Below, in pieces: positions 2,044 to 10,315 of a stretch of DNA of 20,786 bases. This DNA is from a virus. Under the pieces are notes generated by a model. The model did no database searches. It was not told the origin of the DNA and worked only from the letters and a program-made list of their open reading frames with translations. Numbering within the stretch: the first letter of the stretch is position 1; every line of letters starts with the position of its first letter. The stretch lies in IMG/VR virus record IMGVR_UViG_3300030098_000885, positions 1,484 through 22,269 of that record. One strand, 5' to 3'. The position numbers were made by a program, and so were the translations under genes.

Positions 2044-3075
2044 ATGGCGTTTAAATTAAATGATAGGGTAAAAGAATCCAGTTCGACTACTGGAACAGGC
2101 ACGTTTACACTAGGCGGAGCAGTCTCAGGTTTTGAGACTTTTTCTGCTGGTATCGGTGGAGGTAATACCACCTATTATTGTATCTTTGAGACAGGAACTA
2201 CAAACTTTGAGGTTGGTTTCGGAACTTTAAACGGAGGAGCGAGCACACTTGCTAGAACTTATGTTATCTCCAGTTCTAACAGTGATGCAAAAGTAAATTT
2301 TGCAGGCAATACCGAAGTATTCTGTACTGTGCCTGGTGCAAAGATAGGTCTACCATTTCCAGAAGAGAATGCATCTTCATCAGCGCCAAAGGTAATTACG
2401 GTAACAGTTGATAGTAAGTCTGGTAATCATCCATATCAAGGTGTGGGTTCTGGTAATGCATATTTTTTAGATGGACTAGAAGCGCCTGCTTTGAGATTAA
2501 CCGGTGTGGATTCATCAAACTCGGCTTACGCACAATATTATAGATTCGATCAATCAGACTCATCAAATAGTGGACACCCTTTAAGATTCTATCTAGATTC
2601 CGCTAAGACCACAGAGTATACGACAGGTGTAACAAATACAGGAAGCTCACCAGCACCTGGATCATCTGGTGCTTATACACAGATTGCTGTCGATGAGACA
2701 ACACCAAATATTCTGTATTATCAATGTTCATCTCATGGATATATGGGTAATCATGTTACTAATATAGGTAATAAGATTAATTCAAATCTGGTTACAATAG
2801 GAGATGTAACCGTTGGATCTAAATTGAAGATGCCAACGAATACGGCAAACAAAATGTTAGTTGCAGATGGCACATCTTTTGAGGAAGTTGACATGTCTGG
2901 AGATGCAACAATAGCATCTGGCGGAGCTTTAACATTAGCTAACTCTGGAGTATCAGCAGCTAGCTATACAAATTCATCAATAACGGTAGATGCTAAAGGT
3001 AGGGTTACCGCAGCTTCCAGTGGATCTGCAGGGGTATCAGCAGGATTTGCGGTTGCAATGGCAATAGCATTATAG
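2044..3075 (+). CDS. Tail fibre with cupredoxin-like domain and C-terminal fibre repeat
   Basis: 343 residues with three recognisable parts. Residues 1-102 (DRVKESSSTTGTGTFTLGGAV...YVISSSN...VFCTVPG) are a fibre N-terminal domain common in phages. Residues 117-240 look like a cupredoxin: a beta-rich stretch with GHPLRF (His178) and then YYQCSSHGYM, giving Cys228, His231 and Met234. These are the His, Cys, His, Met ligands of type 1 copper sites, and the C-x2-H-x2-M loop has the same spacing as amicyanin. Residues 250-343 hold the fibre motif YTNSSITVDAKGRVTAASSG and a hydrophobic end. A weak AGGA site precedes ATG 2044, and the stop TAG is followed at once by TAA. The fibre role is well supported; copper binding is inferred from the ligand pattern only. 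Confidence 0.85.
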   Translation: MAFKLNDRVKESSSTTGTGTFTLGGAVSGFETFSAGIGGGNTTYYCIFETGTTNFEVGFGTLNGGASTLARTYVISSSNSDAKVNFAGNTEVFCTVPGAKIGLPFPEENASSSAPKVITVTVDSKSGNHPYQGVGSGNAYFLDGLEAPALRLTGVDSSNSAYAQYYRFDQSDSSNSGHPLRFYLDSAKTTEYTTGVTNTGSSPAPGSSGAYTQIAVDETTPNILYYQCSSHGYMGNHVTNIGNKINSNLVTIGDVTVGSKLKMPTNTANKMLVADGTSFEEVDMSGDATIASGGALTLANSGVSAASYTNSSITVDAKGRVTAASSGSAGVSAGFAVAMAIAL

Positions 3076-3088
3076 TAAAAGGATAATT

Positions 3089-3427
3089 ATGGCACAAGAT
3101 TTTGAACGATATGGTTTAAACGCAGTAGGGACATCAGCAACAGCAGTACATACAAGTAATTCTGACGATGCTATTATCTCTGTTCGTTTAGCTAATATTA
3201 CAACATCAACAATAAATGCAGATGTGTTTATCACATCTTCTGTAACAGGTGGTTCTCAGGACCACTACTTAATTAAAAATGCGCCAATCGTTCCGGGCGG
3301 ATCGCTCGAACTTATCGATGGTGGAAGTAAAATAGTAATTGAATCGGGAGACGTGGTAAAAGCACAATCCGACACTGCAAGTTCATTAAGTGTTTGGATG
3401 TCTGTTGTCGATGCAATTAGTACGTAA
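3089..3427 (+). CDS. Small beta-rich virion protein, paralog of 13498-13827
   Basis: 112 residues, preceded by AAAGGA. The sequence is almost entirely predicted beta: VHTS...AIISVRLANITTST...DVFITS, then IVPGGSLELI...IVIESGDVVKAQSDTASSLSVWMSVVDA. The pattern lines up along its length with the 109-residue protein at 13498, in particular 'sD..aIi...v', the Ala/Gly-Thr/Ser-x-Glu-Leu-Ile block and 'GD/E-x-[VL]KAQ...A..L.....S..[ED]'. Small Ig-like virion proteins of this sort occur in many marine phages. It sits between two fibre genes, so a collar or tail decoration role is plausible but unproved. Confidence 0.75.
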   Translation: MAQDFERYGLNAVGTSATAVHTSNSDDAIISVRLANITTSTINADVFITSSVTGGSQDHYLIKNAPIVPGGSLELIDGGSKIVIESGDVVKAQSDTASSLSVWMSVVDAIST

Positions 3428-3435
3428 GGAGATTC

Positions 3436-4395
3436 ATGGCCTATTTAGGAAACGCACCAGCACGAAGCTTTATAAGTTTTGAGAAACAGGTATTTACAAT
3501 CGTAAACTCTCAAACTGCGTACACTCTATCAAATAGTGTTACTAACGAAAACGATATCAGACTTGTAATCAATAACGTAGTACAAGAGCCGGGAGCTGGC
3601 AAAGCGTATACTGCATCAGGCACAACTCTTACATTATCAGCGGCATTAACAAATGGCACTGATGAAATGTATTGTGTATTTTTAGGTAAAGCTGTAGGGA
3701 CAGTCAATGCTCCTGCAGGATCTGTTGCTGCATCACAATTAGCTGCAGATTCAGTTACTGCTGCAAAACTTAATGATGATATTATTTCTGGTCAAACAGC
3801 ACTTGCTAGTGAACCAGCAGACACAGATGAATTTTTAGTATCAGATGCTGGAACATTAAAAAGACTTGATTACTCATTAATTAAATCATCACCAGGATTG
3901 ACTAAATTATCAACCATAACATTAAGTAGTGCTACCACACTTATTACTTTTGATAGTTCTATTATAACATCAACTTATGATGCATATTATTTTACTATAT
4001 TAGCTAGTCCAGAAAATGATAATGATTATCTTCAAGTAAGATTATCAGATGGTGGATCATTTAATTCTGGTTCCTCAGATTATGGTTGGGCTTATATAAA
4101 CGATTCGGGCAGTGGAACTAGCTCAAATGGTGCTGCTCAGATAAGATTATTTGATGCAACAGATAATAGTTTTGCAAACGCATATCATGGGGAATTAACA
4201 CTGTTATATCCATCAAATTCATCTACAAAAACAGTTGTTAATTTTAAAGGACATAGAAATGATGGAGATCCAGCACTTATGAATGGTGGTGGTCAAAGAT
4301 TAAATGCTGAAGCTACTGATGGAATTCAATTTTTCTTTAGTACAGGAGATGCGAGTATTGGAAGCTCAATAACTTGTTATGGTATAACGAAATAG
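3436..4395 (+). CDS. Tail fibre, MAYLGNAP docking domain plus jelly-roll-like C-terminus
   Basis: 319 residues, with an AAGGAG site upstream of ATG 3436. Residues 1-95 (MAYLGNAPARSF...QTAYTLS...DIRLVINNVVQEPG...YCVFLGKAVGTVN) are a widespread fibre N-terminal docking domain, shared in part with the short protein at 6224. Residues 96-150 contain SVAASQLAADSVTAAKLND and TDEFLVSDAGTLKRLDYSLI, a linker motif common in marine phage fibres. Residues 155-319 are a beta-rich terminal domain (STYDAYYFTI...SDGGSFNSGSSDYGWAY...GYHG-like region) likely to be the receptor-binding or trimer-forming head. CpG content falls sharply at about residue 95, consistent with domain exchange. The fibre assignment is firm; the receptor is unknown. 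Confidence 0.85.
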   Translation: MAYLGNAPARSFISFEKQVFTIVNSQTAYTLSNSVTNENDIRLVINNVVQEPGAGKAYTASGTTLTLSAALTNGTDEMYCVFLGKAVGTVNAPAGSVAASQLAADSVTAAKLNDDIISGQTALASEPADTDEFLVSDAGTLKRLDYSLIKSSPGLTKLSTITLSSATTLITFDSSIITSTYDAYYFTILASPENDNDYLQVRLSDGGSFNSGSSDYGWAYINDSGSGTSSNGAAQIRLFDATDNSFANAYHGELTLLYPSNSSTKTVVNFKGHRNDGDPALMNGGGQRLNAEATDGIQFFFSTGDASIGSSITCYGITK

Positions 4396-4403
4396 GAGAA
4401 TTT

Positions 4404-4616
4404 ATGTCAAGATATAAAATAGTTAATGGAGAAAGAATACAATTTACAGCAGAAGAAGAAGCTGCTAGAGACGCTGAAGAAGCACAAGCAGAGATAGAAA
4501 TACAAGCCTCTATAGATGCAAAAGAAACAAAAAAAAATAAAAAAGCATCAGGCAAACAAAAGTTAAAAGATTTAGGTCTTGATGATGATGAGATTCAAGC
4601 ATTAATAGGAGAATAA
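4404..4616 (+). CDS. Small acidic protein, possible tail fibre assembly factor
   Basis: 70 residues. I start at ATG 4404, six bases after AGGAG; an upstream in-frame ATG at 4374 lies inside the fibre gene and lacks a site. The protein is charged: MSRYKIVNGERIQFTAEEEAARDAEEAQAEIE, then a Lys-rich run (KETKKNKKASGKQKL) and a terminal KLKDLGLDDDEIQALIGE. The ending is a short helix pattern I remember in small proteins encoded just after marine phage tail fibres. The Glu/Ala-rich half is probably a helix or coiled coil. A run of nine A bases at 4529-4537 lies in the Lys segment. A chaperone or tail-associated role is inferred from position; no catalytic motif is visible. Confidence 0.7.
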   Translation: MSRYKIVNGERIQFTAEEEAARDAEEAQAEIEIQASIDAKETKKNKKASGKQKLKDLGLDDDEIQALIGE

Positions 4617-4617
4617 T

Positions 4618-5676
4618 ATGGCAATAGATAAAATAGAATCGGCAGGACTAGCGACAAACACAAACCAACCAAATTTTAGAAACATAATTATTAATGGTGA
4701 CATGAGTGCTGCTCAAAGAGCAACTTCAACTGCTTCTATAACTTCAAATGGTTATTACACAGTAGATAGATTTCAAACAGTAGCATCAAGTTTAGGTACA
4801 TGGACACAATCACAATCAACTGAAGTTCCAACTGGTCAAGGTTTTGCAACATCTTTAAAAATGGATTGCACAACAGCAGATGCTTCTCCATCAGCAAGTG
4901 ATAAATTATCTATAAGACAAAAAGTAGAAGGTCAAAATTTACAGTATCTTAAAAAAGGAACTTCAAGTGCTGAAAGTTTAACATTTTCTTTTTGGGTAAG
5001 GTCAAATAAAACAGGAACTTATATAGCTGAACTTTATGATAATGATAATTCAAGACAAATTTCTCAAAGCTACACAATATCTTCTGCTGATACTTGGGAA
5101 AAGAAAATATTAACTTTTGCTGGAGATACTTCTGGTGCGTTTGGAAATGATGCAAATAATAGTTTAGAATGTTATTTTTGGTTAGGAGCTGGAAGTGATT
5201 TTGCTGGTGGAACATTATCAACAACTTGGACATCAAATACAAATGCAAACAGAGCAGTAGGTCAAGTCAATCTTGCAGATAGCACATCAAACGAATGGTA
5301 TGTTACAGGAGTACAATTAGAAGCTGGAACATCTGCATCTGATTTTGAATTCTTGCCTGTTGATGTAAATTTAAGAAGATGTCAAAGATATTTTGAACAA
5401 ATGACTGCTGATTATCCAGGACTATCAGCATCAAATAAAGGTAATTACTCAGGAACTTCTGTTTATTTTAAAGTTATAAAAAGAGCAACTCCTACGATGT
5501 CAGATGTAACTTTAAGAAATATGCAAACTTCTGACACAGCTACAGTTTCAGCATCTACTAGTGGTTGGACAACAGAAGCTCATGCTAGGTATGGTTCAAC
5601 TGCTACTAATGGCAGTACAGGAGATGGATGTCACATCTATAATGCAAACGGAATACAAGCAGATGCGGAGTTATAA
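4618..5676 (+). CDS. Tail fibre with carbohydrate-binding-type beta-sandwich
   Basis: 352 residues. It begins MAIDKIESAGLATNTNQPNF, then RNIIINGDMSAAQRAT. The 'N-x-I-I-N-G-D-M-x-x-A-Q-R' block and the following 'YYTVDRF' mark a large phage fibre family. The central part (about 90-245: LSIRQKVEGQNLQYLK, TFSFWVRSNKTGTYIAELYD, EWYVTGVQLEAG) looks like a carbohydrate-binding-module jelly roll. FEFLPVDVNLRRCQRYFEQ at about 245-262 is the usual end of that family, and the last 90 residues are a variable Thr/Ser-rich tip. ATG 4618 lies 2 nt after the previous stop. CpG is scarce (about 7 in the gene by hand). It probably binds a surface glycan; the ligand cannot be read from sequence. Confidence 0.85.
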   Translation: MAIDKIESAGLATNTNQPNFRNIIINGDMSAAQRATSTASITSNGYYTVDRFQTVASSLGTWTQSQSTEVPTGQGFATSLKMDCTTADASPSASDKLSIRQKVEGQNLQYLKKGTSSAESLTFSFWVRSNKTGTYIAELYDNDNSRQISQSYTISSADTWEKKILTFAGDTSGAFGNDANNSLECYFWLGAGSDFAGGTLSTTWTSNTNANRAVGQVNLADSTSNEWYVTGVQLEAGTSASDFEFLPVDVNLRRCQRYFEQMTADYPGLSASNKGNYSGTSVYFKVIKRATPTMSDVTLRNMQTSDTATVSASTSGWTTEAHARYGSTATNGSTGDGCHIYNANGIQADAEL

Positions 5677-5678
5677 TT

Positions 5679-5849
5679 ATGTTTATTAGTGTAGAAAAAA
5701 AATATGACTATGGTGAGTTCGGAGGCTATCTTGTAGTTAAAGAAGATGGTACTAGATGGGCTGTGCCATTAGACGAAGCAAACAAAGACTATCAAGAAAT
5801 TCAACAGTGGATTTCTGAAGGAAACACTGTTATAGATAACGGAGAATAA
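5679..5849 (+). CDS. Small fibre-associated protein, 56 aa
   Basis: A short gene of 56 residues filling the gap between the fibre at 4618 and the gene at 5861. It begins ATG at 5679, 3 nt after the previous stop, and ends TAA at 5847-5849. The sequence starts MFISVEKKYDYGEFGGYLVV, then has VPLDEANKDYQEIQQWISEG and NTVIDNGE. The 'VP-x-D-x-x-N-x-D-Y-x-x-[IY]-x-x-W-[IL]-x-x-G-N-T' pattern is one I remember from small proteins and fibre assembly domains of tailed phages. Length, codon use and tight packing support a real gene. It could help fold or dock the preceding fibre, or form part of the tail itself; this is inference from position. Confidence 0.75.
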   Translation: MFISVEKKYDYGEFGGYLVVKEDGTRWAVPLDEANKDYQEIQQWISEGNTVIDNGE

Positions 5850-5860
5850 GGAGAAAAACT

Positions 5861-6211
5861 ATGGCACAACTATCAACTAAAGTTCAACAATATTGCGCTA
5901 ACAACGGCGTAGCAAATGTTGACTTTACGACAGACGTTCTACTTCAGGATGACTCGAACGGTCAGGGTCCCTACATCAAGGAATGGAATATTTCTAGTGT
6001 AGCAAAACCAACTGACGAGCAACTGAACGCTTTAGACTCTGCTGCTGATTTGTCTGAAAGACAAAACGCTGCAAGAGCTGCAAGAAGAGCGGCCTATGGT
6101 GATTTGGGTGACCAGTTAGACATGCAGTACCATGATAGTGTAGATGGTACTACTACATGGAAAGACCATGTGGCAAAAGTCAAGACTGATAATCCAATCC
6201 CAACAGAGTAA
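5861..6211 (+). CDS. XkdW/tail-assembly-type phage protein
   Basis: 116 residues with a strong AAGGAG site. The C-terminal half (RRAAYGDLGDQLDMQYHDSVDGTTTWKDH then VAKVKTDNPIP) carries the 'Y-x-x-[IL]-G-D-Q-L-D-x-x-[YF]-H-D-...-W-x-x-H-[IV]-x-x-V-K-x-x-x-P' signature of a small protein common beside tail fibre genes in many tailed phages. The N-terminal half (VQQYCANNGVANVDFTTDVLLQDDSNGQGPYI) is a small beta unit, and a helical Ala/Arg stretch (ERQNAARAARRAA) joins the two. It probably assists fibre or tail assembly; the assignment rests on the signature and the neighbours. It is notably richer in CpG than the genes on its left. Confidence 0.8.
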   Translation: MAQLSTKVQQYCANNGVANVDFTTDVLLQDDSNGQGPYIKEWNISSVAKPTDEQLNALDSAADLSERQNAARAARRAAYGDLGDQLDMQYHDSVDGTTTWKDHVAKVKTDNPIPTE

Positions 6212-6223
6212 AGGAATTAAATT

Positions 6224-6682
6224 ATGGCTTACGTTGGCAAAGCTCCCCAAACGGGTGCGTATCAAATTTTAGACGATATATCAGGATCGTTTACCGGATC
6301 AACTCCAGGGCCGTTTAACTTAACGGTCGGGGGTACTGCTGTGCTTCCAGGAAACGAAGCTAGTTGTATTATTTCTATTTCAGGAGTAATTCAACAACCC
6401 GTAAGCGCATTTACGATATCTGGTAGTCAGATAACTTTTACAGGAAATCCTGCTAGCTCTGATACTTTTTTTGGTGTCGTTCTCGGTAATACTTTTGACA
6501 TCGGTACACCAACCGACTCAACAGTAACAGCCGGAAGTTTAGCTTCTACATTTTTTGTAAAGAACGCTCAGACGTTGACATCATTGTCAATGCCGGGCTC
6601 AACAAACGGAGCGATGGTTGGACCAGTAACTATTAGTGGTACGATCACGATTCCATCAGGGAGTACATTTGTAATTTTATAA
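6224..6682 (+). CDS. Short fibre-docking protein, MAYVGKAP type
   Basis: 152 residues, preceded by AAAGGA. It starts MAYVGKAPQTGAYQILDDIS, matching the MAYLGNAP opening of the fibre at 3436. The following 'SCIISISGVIQQPVSAFTISGSQITFT' and 'FFGVVLGNTFDIGTPTDSTVTAG' parallel that fibre's 'LVINNVVQEPG' and 'YCVFLGKAVGTVN' docking domain. Beyond about residue 100 there is only a 50-residue beta tail (FFVKNAQTLTSLSMPGSTNGAMVGPVTISGTI) and no large receptor domain, so this may be an adaptor peg or a reduced fibre. It has the highest CpG count of the fibre block (about 25 by hand). The stop overlaps the next ATG by 1 nt. Confidence 0.75.
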   Translation: MAYVGKAPQTGAYQILDDISGSFTGSTPGPFNLTVGGTAVLPGNEASCIISISGVIQQPVSAFTISGSQITFTGNPASSDTFFGVVLGNTFDIGTPTDSTVTAGSLASTFFVKNAQTLTSLSMPGSTNGAMVGPVTISGTITIPSGSTFVIL

Positions 6683-7263
6683 TGAGCACATTAGAAACAA
6701 ATTTAATTCAACCAAGTTCAGGCACTACTTTAACTATAGGTGCATCTGGTGATACTACAAATGTTGTAGGAACTTTACAAAATAATGGCGCTGCTGTTCA
6801 AGGGAAATTTGAAAGTCAATTACTTCATGTTAGAGATGAAAAATCAGCATCATCAGATGGTGGTGGCACTACTGGTGGATCTGTCATGACAAGAGATTTA
6901 AATACAGTTGTTACTAACGAAATAACTGGTGCAAGTTTAGGATCAAATCAAATTACTTTACCAAGCGGCACATATTATATTGAAGCTTATGCTCCAGGAT
7001 ATGCTTGTAACAAACACAGATTGTTTTTATACAACACTACAGATAGTTCATATACTATAATGGGTTCAACAGGATATGCTAGAACTACAAATGCACATCA
7101 AACCGAAAGTAAACTCATGGGTAGATTTACTATTGCTGCACAAAAAGTTTTTGATTTAAGACAATATTTTGGAAGCACACAATCTGGTTCTGGTATGGGT
7201 GTAAGTGAAGATCAAAGTAGAACAGAATATTATGCAAACGCTCAAATATGGAAGGTATCTTAA
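6682..7263 (+). CDS. Tail fibre/tip receptor-binding candidate, 'HVRDEK' family
   Basis: 193 residues, ATG overlapping the previous TAA. Residues 1-45 (MSTLETNLIQPSSGTTLTIG...GDTTNVVGTLQNNGA) are a short Gly/Ser/Thr docking segment shared in style with 7438 and 8018. Residues 46-193 (LLHVRDEKSAS...TRDLNTVVTNEITGASLGSNQ...LPSGTYYIEAYAPGYACNKHRLFLYNTTDS...GRFTI...NAQIWKVS) fit a trimeric beta-sandwich domain that is frequent at the ends of phage fibres. It is complete from HVRDEK to the closing IWK block. CpG falls to about 5 in this gene. Its role is probably host-surface binding; the target is unknown. Confidence 0.8.
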   Translation: MSTLETNLIQPSSGTTLTIGASGDTTNVVGTLQNNGAAVQGKFESQLLHVRDEKSASSDGGGTTGGSVMTRDLNTVVTNEITGASLGSNQITLPSGTYYIEAYAPGYACNKHRLFLYNTTDSSYTIMGSTGYARTTNAHQTESKLMGRFTIAAQKVFDLRQYFGSTQSGSGMGVSEDQSRTEYYANAQIWKVS

Positions 7264-7264
7264 A

Positions 7265-7438
7265 ATGAAATATGCAAAAATTGAAAACAACGTAGTTAAA
7301 GTAATTTCTTATCAACCTGTTGATGGGTGGGAACAGGTATCTGATAATGTTTATGCAGATATGATTAGAAAAGAAGATGGAACTTTTGATTACACAGAAG
7401 AATTTAAAATAGCTCATAAAGGGAATAACGAATTATAA
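7265..7438 (+). CDS. Small protein, 57 aa, fibre-associated
   Basis: 57 residues starting MKYAKIENNVVKVISYQPVD; I choose ATG 7265 because it follows the previous stop by 1 nt, while the in-frame ATG at 7205 lies within the upstream gene. The sequence continues GWEQVSDNVYADMIRKEDGTFDYTEEFK. The pattern 'M-[KR]-[YF]-A-x-[IV]-[ED]-x-N-x-V' is typical of tiny proteins between phage tail fibre genes, and the end shares its TAA with the next ATG. It is acidic and hydrophilic with no membrane segment. A role in fibre assembly or attachment is a guess based on position. Confidence 0.65.
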   Translation: MKYAKIENNVVKVISYQPVDGWEQVSDNVYADMIRKEDGTFDYTEEFKIAHKGNNEL

Positions 7439-8010
7439 TGGCAAACGGAACATTAAAAGTATCGAATATACAAACAAGCTCTGGATCAGGGACTATTACT
7501 ATTGGTCAATCTGGGGAGACTATTACTATTCCTTCAGGTGCGACACAGACAGGTGTTGGTGGAAAAAATACACCATATTTTGAAATGAGTTTAAGTAGTA
7601 ATCAAACAGGATTATCCGATAATACAGCTACTAAAATTCAATTTGATACTTCAGACTTAGATAGTGATAGTGGTGTTGATGTTTCAACAAACTATAGATA
7701 TACTGTTCAAAGTGGAGATGCGGGAAAATATTTTTTAATTGCGACTGCTACAGGAGAAACAACATCAAGTGATGATAATAAAGATACTTCTGTATTCATA
7801 TATAAAAATGGATCTTCAGTTGCTAAAACTGAATTTGAAACAAGTAGTAGTAGTGATGCATATAGAATAGGTAAAACACTTTACACGATACAAAATTTGT
7901 CTGAAGGAGATTATATAGAAACATTTATTCAAATAAATTCTTCATCTAATGCAAATACAAATATAGCAAAACAAGGTTGTAGAATGAGTGGATTTAGATT
8001 TATAGAATAG
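7438..8010 (+). CDS. C1q/TNF-like tail tip protein
   Basis: 190 residues. Residues 1-42 (MANGTLKVSNIQTSSGSGTI then TIGQSGETITIPSGATQ) are a repetitive Gly/Ser/Thr docking segment. Residues 45-190 are a beta-sandwich with the strand order of C1q-like phage tip domains: YFEMSLSSNQTGLSDNTATKI, then YTVQSGDAGKYFLIATATG, then SVFIYKNGSSVAKTEF, then LYTIQNLSEGDYIETFIQIN and MSGFRFIE at the end. The 'GKY-[LFV]-I-x-A' and 'I-x-K-N-G' motifs are the best markers. It follows the 57-residue gene with a 1 nt overlap. It is probably one of several interchangeable receptor-binding units. Confidence 0.75.
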   Translation: MANGTLKVSNIQTSSGSGTITIGQSGETITIPSGATQTGVGGKNTPYFEMSLSSNQTGLSDNTATKIQFDTSDLDSDSGVDVSTNYRYTVQSGDAGKYFLIATATGETTSSDDNKDTSVFIYKNGSSVAKTEFETSSSSDAYRIGKTLYTIQNLSEGDYIETFIQINSSSNANTNIAKQGCRMSGFRFIE

Positions 8011-8017
8011 GAAAATT

Positions 8018-8572
8018 ATGTCAAGTATATTAAAAGTAGATACATTACAAGATTCTGGTGGAAACACATTACTAACATCTAATGGTAGTGGAACATTAAC
8101 AACTAATAATATTGGTGGAGATAACACCCCAGCTTTTTATGGAGAGTTAGCGTCCGTGGTTACTTTGAGTAGAGCTGTAACAACAGCTATAACTGGTTTT
8201 ACTCAAGATGAAATAGATACCGATAGTGCATTTGATGGAACAACTTTTACTGTTCCCTCTGGTGAAGGTGGTAAATACGCTCTTACAGTTACTATGACTA
8301 TTGATTTTACCGATATTGGACAGGACGGAGAAACTTTTACAATATCCTTATTAAATAATGGTTCGACTGTTAAACAAGCTAGAACCTCAACTAATTCAGG
8401 TAATTTTAGAAATATAAATATAGAAACTTGTACTATTGAAACAATACAAACTTTAGCAGCAGGTGATGAAATTACTTTCAAGGCTTATGGAGTAGATGCA
8501 GATGGTGGTGGCGGAGGAAAAGTGCAAGCTAATAAAAGCTCTGTACAAGGATATAAATTAATAGGAGTATAA
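8018..8572 (+). CDS. C1q/TNF-like tail tip protein
   Basis: 184 residues, preceded by AGGAAA. It starts MSSILKVDTLQDSGGNTLLT with a short Gly/Ser/Thr linker ending at about residue 35. The rest is a beta-sandwich like that of 7438: ELASVVTLSRAVTTAITGFT, TVPSGEGGKYALTVTMTIDF, FTISLLNNGSTVKQARTST, QTLAAGDEITFKAYGVDADG and the closing VQGYKLIGV. 'GGKYAL' and 'LLNNG' correspond to 'AGKYFL' and 'IYKNG' in the neighbour, so the two are probably distant paralogs. Its expected role is binding the cell surface at the tail tip. No enzyme motif is visible. Confidence 0.75.
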   Translation: MSSILKVDTLQDSGGNTLLTSNGSGTLTTNNIGGDNTPAFYGELASVVTLSRAVTTAITGFTQDEIDTDSAFDGTTFTVPSGEGGKYALTVTMTIDFTDIGQDGETFTISLLNNGSTVKQARTSTNSGNFRNINIETCTIETIQTLAAGDEITFKAYGVDADGGGGGKVQANKSSVQGYKLIGV

Positions 8573-8575
8573 ATT

Positions 8576-9124
8576 ATGGCATTAACTAGATTAGGTGGAG
8601 CAAACGCAATAACAGGAGTAATACCAGTAGCAAATGGTGGTACAGGTGCAACTAGTTTTATAGCTGGAATTGAACAAGCAGATCAATGGTCAACAAGTAC
8701 AGATCATACTTTTAGTTCTGCATTTACTGAAGAAGTTGTTACAGCAGGATGGGCTAGATTAACAAATGCAAGATATGGACAGATTGGTTCTGCTTTAACA
8801 GAATCATCAGGAGTTTTTTCTTTCCCCACAACAGGTATTTATAGAATTTATGCTATGATTACTTGGCATGGAAATAATCAAGCGAGTGGTAGTTGTTTTG
8901 GTACAATTCAAGTAACTACAAATAATTCAAGTTATAGTACTGCTGCATCTAGTTCTGGTGGTATGAATAGTGCAAGTAATCGTAGAGATTTTCAAGCAGC
9001 AGAAACAATTATAGATGTTACAGATACATCACAAGTAAAATTTAGAATAACTGTTAATACAAATAATACAAATACTACAATGGATTTTATGAGAGTTATT
9101 GTTTATAGATTAGGTGACACGTAG
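8576..9124 (+). CDS. C1q/TNF-like tail tip protein with NGGTGA linker
   Basis: 182 residues, with an AGGAG site that lies inside the end of the upstream gene. The N-terminus MALTRLGGANAITGVIPVAN is followed by GGTGATS, a short motif found in the shafts of many phage fibres. The rest (HTFSSAFTEEVVTAGWARLT, VFSFPTTGIYRIYAMITWHG, TIDVTDTSQ-like strands, and VIVYRLGDT at the end) fits a beta-sandwich tip; 'GIYRIYA' corresponds to 'GKYFLIA' and 'GKYALTV' in its two upstream neighbours. It is probably the last of the four-gene receptor array. The assignment is by pattern; the ligand is unknown. Confidence 0.75.
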   Translation: MALTRLGGANAITGVIPVANGGTGATSFIAGIEQADQWSTSTDHTFSSAFTEEVVTAGWARLTNARYGQIGSALTESSGVFSFPTTGIYRIYAMITWHGNNQASGSCFGTIQVTTNNSSYSTAASSSGGMNSASNRRDFQAAETIIDVTDTSQVKFRITVNTNNTNTTMDFMRVIVYRLGDT

Positions 9125-9135
9125 GAGCATAATAA

Positions 9136-9579
9136 ATGCTTGGTTTTAGTTCTATAGCCGCTCTACCGATATCTGATTCGGTATTTGATCCCAACGTTAC
9201 TATTAATGTAACTGGCAATCAACTTACTTTGGGTGTAGGTAGTTCGACTGTTTTATCAGGAGCACTTGTATCACCCTCTGGAAGTCCTTTAACACTTGGT
9301 TTTGGATCATTAACAATTAGTGGTGCAGCTAATGTAACTCCTGATGCTACGCCGTTAACTTTAGGTGTAGGCACAGTTACGGTTTCTGCCGCAGCTAATG
9401 TTTCAGTTACAGGAAATCAATTGACCATTGGTACAGGAAGTGTTACAATATCAGCAGCGGCAAATGTATTACCAACTGGTGTACCAATGACGCTAACAAT
9501 AAAAGACGCGGGTATTATTACTTGGAATGACATTGACCCAGGAGCAAGTCAAGTGTGGACACCAATAGACCCGTATTAG
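9136..9579 (+). CDS. Repeat protein with five 22-residue beta repeats
   Basis: 147 residues, with an AGGAG site. The start MLGFSSIAALPISDS and the end ITWNDIDPGASQVWTPIDPY bracket a repetitive core. The core has a unit of exactly 22 residues beginning at residues 23, 45, 67, 89 and 111, of the form [VI]-x-[VP]-x-G-x-x-LT[LI]G-x-G-[ST]-x-T-[VI]-S-x-A-A-N. The last unit is incomplete. The terminal '[ND]-D-I-D-x-x-x-S-x-x-W-T-x-I-D' shape is one I remember from small marine phage tail proteins in which the repeat number varies. It could be a stacked beta rod linking fibre to tail. No enzymatic motif is present. Confidence 0.75.
   Translation: MLGFSSIAALPISDSVFDPNVTINVTGNQLTLGVGSSTVLSGALVSPSGSPLTLGFGSLTISGAANVTPDATPLTLGVGTVTVSAAANVSVTGNQLTIGTGSVTISAAANVLPTGVPMTLTIKDAGIITWNDIDPGASQVWTPIDPY
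9202..9507 (+). repeat. Five-copy 66-bp-period repeat, coding 22-residue units
   Basis: In-frame imperfect repeats within the gene at 9136. The units start at residues 23, 45, 67, 89 and 111, the last one partial. Period is constant at 22 residues; conserved positions include Leu-Thr-[Leu/Ile]-Gly and the Ala-Ala-Asn-Val junction. Nucleotide identity between units is only moderate, so the array is not freshly duplicated. Confidence 0.75.
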
Positions 9580-9586
9580 GAGAATT

Positions 9587-10315
9587 ATGGCATCAAGTTT
9601 TTCAACAAATTCAAAACTAGAACTTATAGCAACAGGTGAAAAAGCAGGACTTTGGGGTACTATCACCAATACAAACTTACAAATTTTAGAACAATTATCT
9701 TCAGGTTATTTATCATCATCTCAATTAGCATCTGGAGATTTAACTTTAGCGCTTGATAATGGTGCAACATCAAATGGTAAAAATTTATATATTAAACTTA
9801 CTGGCACATTAGGTGCTAATAGAAACGTAACCATACCAGATGGTTCTGAAAGAATAATTATATTTGAAGATGCAACAACAAGAGGTACATCTGCATTATA
9901 TACAATAACAGTTAAAACTGTATCAGGAAATGGAGTTGTATTACCAATTGGATCTAAATCATTAGTGTACTCTGATGGTACAAATGTTAGTCTTGGTATT
10001 CGTAACAAAGGTTATGTAACTTTAAACTCTTCAACAATTACTGCATACACAGCGGTAGATGGTGATCAGATATTTGCAAATACAACAGCTAACCCAATCA
10101 CAGTAACTCTACCTGCATCACCAGCAGTAGGATCAGAGGTTACATTTATTGATGCAAGAGGTACTTTTAATTCTAACAACTTGATTGTTAACAGAAACAG
10201 TCAACCAATAAACACAGGTACATCAAACCTAACACTAACCACTAACGGTCAAGCTTTTACATTGGTGTATGTTGATGCAACAAGAGGCTGGGCATTTAAA
10301 ACTAACACAGCGTAG
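9587..10315 (+). CDS. Widespread marine phage structural protein ('STNxKLELIATGE' family)
   Basis: 242 residues, with an AGGAG site. It starts MASSFSTNSKLELIATGEKA, then GLWGTITNTNLQILEQLSSG, an N-terminus I recall in a great many marine phage virion proteins. Residues 45-140 are beta-rich (NLYIKLTGTLGANRNVTIP, SALYTITVKTVSGNGV). Residues 142-240 (YVTLNSSTITAYTAVDGDQI, NPITVTLPASPAVGSEVTF, GQAFTLVYVDATRGWAFKTN) form a second domain with a Thr/Asn-rich pattern seen in phage fibres. It is the last gene before the nozzle protein, which suggests it lies close to the tail core. The structural role is likely; the exact position in the virion is not known. Confidence 0.8.
   Translation: MASSFSTNSKLELIATGEKAGLWGTITNTNLQILEQLSSGYLSSSQLASGDLTLALDNGATSNGKNLYIKLTGTLGANRNVTIPDGSERIIIFEDATTRGTSALYTITVKTVSGNGVVLPIGSKSLVYSDGTNVSLGIRNKGYVTLNSSTITAYTAVDGDQIFANTTANPITVTLPASPAVGSEVTFIDARGTFNSNNLIVNRNSQPINTGTSNLTLTTNGQAFTLVYVDATRGWAFKTNTA

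Follow-up and report, generated by a model that had tools for sequence, protein, structure and literature searches.

Cupredoxins (amicyanin, pseudoazurin, plastocyanin, rusticyanin; PF00127) provide the closest described comparison for a domain found here within a tail-fibre-type protein of a marine bacterial virus recorded in IMG/VR. The two are alike in a beta-sandwich, which is predicted for the fibre domain, in the order of the ligands (His...Cys-x2-His-x2-Met), in the positions of these ligands relative to the strands, and in a ligand loop of amicyanin length. The fibre module differs from cupredoxins in that Pfam does not recognise it outside the ligand regions, in its longer inserts, in a Pro directly following the first His, a position held by Asn in many cupredoxins, and in its location within a virion protein that has no signal peptide. 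The Ig-like domains of phage virions offer a second comparison. These are likewise beta-sandwich modules that occur on many virion proteins of unrelated phages and are evolutionarily dispensable; however, the fibre module has a conserved set of metal ligands and a predicted cupredoxin-type topology.

Metal binding by a phage fibre is known from T4, whose long tail fibre binds iron by means of HxH motifs and has given rise to a Trojan Horse hypothesis (PMC11705849). T4-like fibres with HxH motifs, those of marine phages included, share with the present fibre the occurrence of metal ligands in a phage tail fibre; however, they hold iron between fibre chains by pairs of His residues, whereas the ligands described here (Cys-His2-Met) belong to a cupredoxin-type domain (PMC11705849). 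Marine viruses also encode copper enzymes, for example nirK (PMC8115048). Both cases represent a copper protein fold from a marine virus, but viral nirK is a metabolic enzyme derived from the host, whereas the domain considered here is part of a virion protein (PMC8115048). Searches of open papers turned up no account of a phage structural protein that contains a cupredoxin domain.

Results

The window, which is the whole stretch of 20,786 nucleotides that was analysed, corresponds to bases 1484–22269 of a 22,269-base IMG/VR virus record. An ORF at 2044–3075 on the plus strand is translated into a 343-aa tail-fibre-type protein. PHROG 30742, ‘tail fiber protein’, matches residues 110–332 of this protein (4.5e-45), and its N-terminal part resembles the fibre proteins of other phages in sequence comparisons. 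Homology to annotated fibres, together with a position in the tail gene block, identifies the product as a probable tail fibre. Upstream on the same strand are the gene for a protein designated GK (GKFAKAISDRSG; 350–895), which matches PHROG 28581 of unknown function and carries no copper-type domain here, and a SU10-type adaptor gene (895–1593), which served as the fixed point for drawing samples independently of the domain. Relatives of the gene block are found in the Pelagibacter phages HTVC023P and HTVC027P and in phage 023Pt_psg01. In the window’s own record the gene for UP, another protein of the block, is broken by a run of Ns near the window start (G000:1460–1490), and the N-terminal part of UP was read there from the far side of the run only. 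Downstream of the fibre gene, a series of small fibre-like genes occupies positions 3089–10315 of the window; in HTVC023P and 023Pt_psg01 the corresponding interval also contains genes with the annotations 2OG-Fe(II) oxygenase and ferrochelatase.

The fibre begins with an N-terminal domain (residues 1–104; 2044–2355, plus strand) that it has in common with a fibre of 023Pt_psg01, which is 127 aa long and lacks the copper-type domain. The C-terminal segment of the window fibre (2770–3072, plus strand) has an ending, SAGFAVAMAIAL, that matches the end of this insert-free fibre, SAGFALAMAVAL. The cupredoxin-like domain would sit between these two parts. The initial annotation had placed it at residues 117–240 (2392–2763), a location that is upheld here, although the predicted fold is somewhat wider (about residues 114–242; 2383–2769, plus strand). 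The proposed ligand set was recovered exactly in the translation, with His178 (2575–2577) in GHPLRF and Cys228 (2725–2727), His231 (2734–2736) and Met234 (2743–2745) in YYQCSSHGYM, all on the plus strand. Both the translation and the alignments bear out a C-x2-H-x2-M loop of the length seen in amicyanin. Another His within the domain, His129 (2428–2430, in NHPY), is invariant in the subfamily of full-length fibres and lies in a segment that is missing from many other family members; it is possibly a second, clade-specific site.

Prediction of the full-length fibre structure was poor (pLDDT 65, pTM 0.44). For the domain itself, AlphaFold with alignment A4 gave a beta-sandwich of nine strands with a mean pLDDT of 90.1 and a pTM of 0.85. 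Assignment of strands by DSSP in this model places the first His two residues ahead of a strand (180–183), and the Cys, the proposed thiolate ligand, at the end of the next-to-last strand (223–228). The second His and the Met, which alignment and model mark as the proposed axial ligand, are in the loop that joins this strand to the last one. Plastocyanin and amicyanin show the same order of ligands relative to strands, and the modelled placement in the fibre domain agrees with theirs.

In a Foldseek search of the PDB, ranks 1–9 were occupied by eight rusticyanin entries and a copper nitrite reductase, with probabilities of 0.97–0.99 and TM-scores on the query of 0.40–0.47; the best E-value was 1.3e-3 and none passes E 0.001. 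Multicopper oxidases and nitrosocyanin were found further down the list, and TM-scores were about 0.4–0.5 overall. The initial annotation had proposed structure prediction and a fold search as a check of its copper site, and these point to a Greek-key beta-sandwich of cupredoxin type in the fibre domain, with modest similarity to known structures. A comparison with predicted viral structures gave 66 matches that pass E 0.001. Most of the listed ones belong to marine phages and are fibre, baseplate-connector or structural proteins; the list also has four ‘beta-sandwich proteins’ of giant viruses. The latter four (BFVD A0A481Z6J5, A0A481YWX9, A0A481YY19 and A0A481Z7Q7; pithovirus-/marseillevirus-like) reach E-values of 3e-7 or lower against the fold.

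Direct searches of Pfam, NCBIfam and PDB sequences with the domain gave no significant match to a copper family. An indirect connection runs through L192 and L194, two domains of large Bacteroidetes proteins that PF00127 (Copper-bind) recovered; with 30.1 bits, the L192 domain exceeds the PF00127 cut-off of 21.2. The profile of the phage family (A3) matches that of L192 and L194 (A7) with a probability of 91.9% and an E-value of 7e-7. The ligands are aligned in this match, and the two profiles have no sequence in common. Three ordinary PF00127 proteins gave only a weak match when compared directly. Seventeen of the 54 A4 members show a weak resemblance, with a best E-value of 0.0011 that falls short of the cut-off, to PF25489, the At5g54830-like domain of plants, possibly a eukaryotic relative of this module.

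Alignment of homologs, which had been named as a further check, indicates that conservation extends to all four ligands as one set, both in 54 relatives and in the larger collection of 279 copies described below. Only six columns are invariant in the 54-sequence alignment, which extends down to 32% identity (F57, H67, Y115, C117, H120 and M123, in the numbering of the aligned piece), and four of the six are the proposed ligands. Invariant columns placed at random would include the ligands with a probability of about 3e-6, a figure that ignores kinship. The ligand pattern is not a chance one, since all four residues are among so few invariant positions. A set of 11 very distant members, to which cyanophage copies and a SAR86 protein that is a putative lipoprotein belong, has eight invariant columns, half of which (4/8) are the ligands.

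A scan of IMG/VR with the domain returned 516 related stretches, and tblastn with the family consensus gave 911 hits, which are spread over 359 mostly marine phage records with very few exceptions. From 484 loci, 279 distinct copies of the domain were obtained. The H-C-H-M set is intact in 245 of these, three copies are truncated, and 31 lack both His residues and the Cys. None of the 279 distinct copies keeps just one or two of these three residues. The degenerate copies read FNTM, YATM, YGTM, NSTM, NSLM, QSTM, ENAM, YTQM and LNTM; the Met is retained in all 31, perhaps because it serves packing. The losses amount to three changes, at least two of which are forced by well-supported branches of a tree that excludes the ligand columns. 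The degenerate copies align across the entire domain, and the domain therefore persists without the site. As judged from these sequences, the pattern of loss suggests that selection maintains the site for its function, beyond any use as a staple. The initial annotation had offered stabilisation of the fibre as one role for copper; a simple stabilising role is made less likely, because 31 copies have the domain but no H-C-H. Its other two suggestions, sensing of redox state and binding of a host protein that bears copper, are conceivable roles.

The domain is found on several virion proteins. In 023Pt_psg01 it forms the N-terminus of UP. In three loci (L168, L169 and L172) it is on GK, the protein between UP and the adaptor, and in L093 and L096–L109 it lies closely downstream of the GK match. 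In cyanophages it is carried by proteins annotated as gp7 and gp9, which are baseplate proteins, and by long fibres. The putative copper site is not confined to receptor-facing fibres, because the module also occurs on other proteins of the virion block and on baseplate proteins.

Among loci of the podovirus group in which both UP and the fibre are readable, none has two intact copies. An intact UP copy accompanies a plain fibre in 34 of these loci, a fibre copy accompanies an absent or degenerate UP copy in 57, and neither is present in 50; one further locus has a GK copy. Mutual exclusion of intact copies has a Fisher value of 8e-10, which was computed on related phages in samples partly drawn by the domain itself and was for these reasons not accepted as proof. 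Within loci that retain a UP copy the trend is the same (Fisher 7e-4, from very few events and a table partly counted by hand). When 30 virus records were searched whole, 28 had one match and two had an extra, degenerate match. A one-site rule fails for T4-like cyanophages, which have 1–5 matches per genome.

Where sampling ignored the domain, HTVC023P-like phages lacked it throughout in UP, GK and the fibre, whereas among window-like phages 39 loci had a fibre copy and 16 readable fibres had none; these counts, like those of intact copies above, depend on kinship and sampling. The whole genome of HTVC023P contains no copy of the domain. The other four short-genome phages that were searched have exactly one copy each.

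The domain is also present in marine bacterial genomes. In SAR86 and other Gammaproteobacteria it occurs in short proteins with a lipoprotein-like start (L184, L170, L175), and in Bacteroidetes it occurs in very large proteins (L171, L173). In a Betaproteobacteria MAG (NHFB01000041.1) it is combined with DUF4214 in a gene (L178:3363–4891) that starts about 30 bases past a gene for a DUF411 protein (PF04214, 8.7e-26). DUF411 proteins are tied to copper handling elsewhere, and this neighbourhood may offer a clue to what the cellular form does. Six further genome hits (L176, L177, L179, L181, L182 and L183) resemble phage sequence because of their fibre-type starts. L181 is on a single-cell contig (KB911105.1, Flavobacterium sp. 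SCGC AAA160-P02) that has the gene block and fibre type of the window; this hints at a flavobacterial host, although the sequence may come from a co-sorted particle. The pattern used to scan cellular genomes contained the Cys and His residues, and the scan is therefore silent on cellular copies that lack the site.

Discussion

The reading that we favour, with a probability of about 0.6, is that the fibre contains a mobile cupredoxin-type virion module with a complete type 1 ligand set, which was inserted in the fibre and is kept for metal binding. This reading draws on the invariant ligands, the predicted fold and its nearest structures, the joint loss of H, C and H, the bridge to Copper-bind, the variety of carriers, and the cellular relatives with their lipoprotein-like starts and, in one case, a DUF411 gene directly before. 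It is very probable that the domain is of cupredoxin type and has a functional metal site. We infer, as likely, that the metal is copper and that it is present in virions. A role at the particle surface, in attachment or at the host envelope, is a tentative proposal, by which a copper-loaded surface element would assist the particle in binding the host envelope or in acting on it, comparable to the promiscuous Ig-like domains of other phages. The bacterial cytoplasm contains almost no free copper, so loading would have to follow lysis, with copper taken up outside the cytoplasm from sea water or from pools in the host envelope. The full proposal, in which marine phages use a mobile virion copper module, loaded outside the cytoplasm, as a factor in adsorption or envelope interaction, is speculative and rather unlikely as it stands. 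Several points count against the favoured reading: similarity to known cupredoxin structures is modest, direct sequence searches reached no copper family, Pro follows the first His, phage proteins are made in a copper-poor cytoplasm, and HTVC023P manages without the domain.

Synthesis in the cytoplasm would suit a site that holds zinc or mixed metals, is loaded as the protein is made, and only shapes surface loops. Zinc can occupy type 1 sites, and the ligand data are compatible with either metal. However, Cys-His2-Met is a copper set and not the usual structural zinc set, and the 31 copies that have kept the domain sequence without the site indicate that the site is unnecessary for keeping the domain; we regard zinc as doubtful. 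The same ligands are those of electron carriers, and electron carriers and copper oxidoreductases are also the closest folds, as would be expected of a copper centre that passes electrons to or from the host envelope or switches state on reduction of its copper near the cell. Such a redox centre is improbable, since neither a partner protein nor a further redox centre was seen adjoining the gene and the module is carried by various types of structural protein.

The fibre copper might also be recognised by a metal-uptake system in the host outer membrane, in the manner of the Trojan Horse hypothesis proposed for iron in phage tails, for which iron binding by HxH motifs in the long tail fibre of T4 is the precedent (PMC11705849). 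The presence of the module on non-fibre proteins of the same phage group, for which receptor contact is less obvious, makes this quite improbable. A type 1 site is, in addition, mostly buried. A metal-free beta-sandwich adhesion domain with residues conserved for packing only is very improbable, since, for all that promiscuous metal-free Ig-like domains are known on phage virions and a few members weakly match carbohydrate-binding families, three residues distant in sequence are lost only together, and the ligand placement and the bridge to Copper-bind would both have to be coincidences.

Returning to the mobile cupredoxin-type module, a domain of this kind is known, and its use as a mobile part of the virion is new as far as the open papers searched show. 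The proteins that bear it have so far been annotated merely as ‘tail fiber’ or ‘hypothetical’, and the module itself is a soluble domain of about 130 residues. Hundreds of marine phages, including some that infect SAR11, Prochlorococcus and Synechococcus, would carry in their virion proteins a type 1 site that is complete and, on the comparisons made here, apparently selected. A copper site in the virion would link phage adsorption or stability to trace-metal chemistry. If these phages do use a mobile copper module for adsorption, the availability of copper in sea water would affect phage infectivity, and phage particles would constitute an unrecognised class of oceanic copper ligand.
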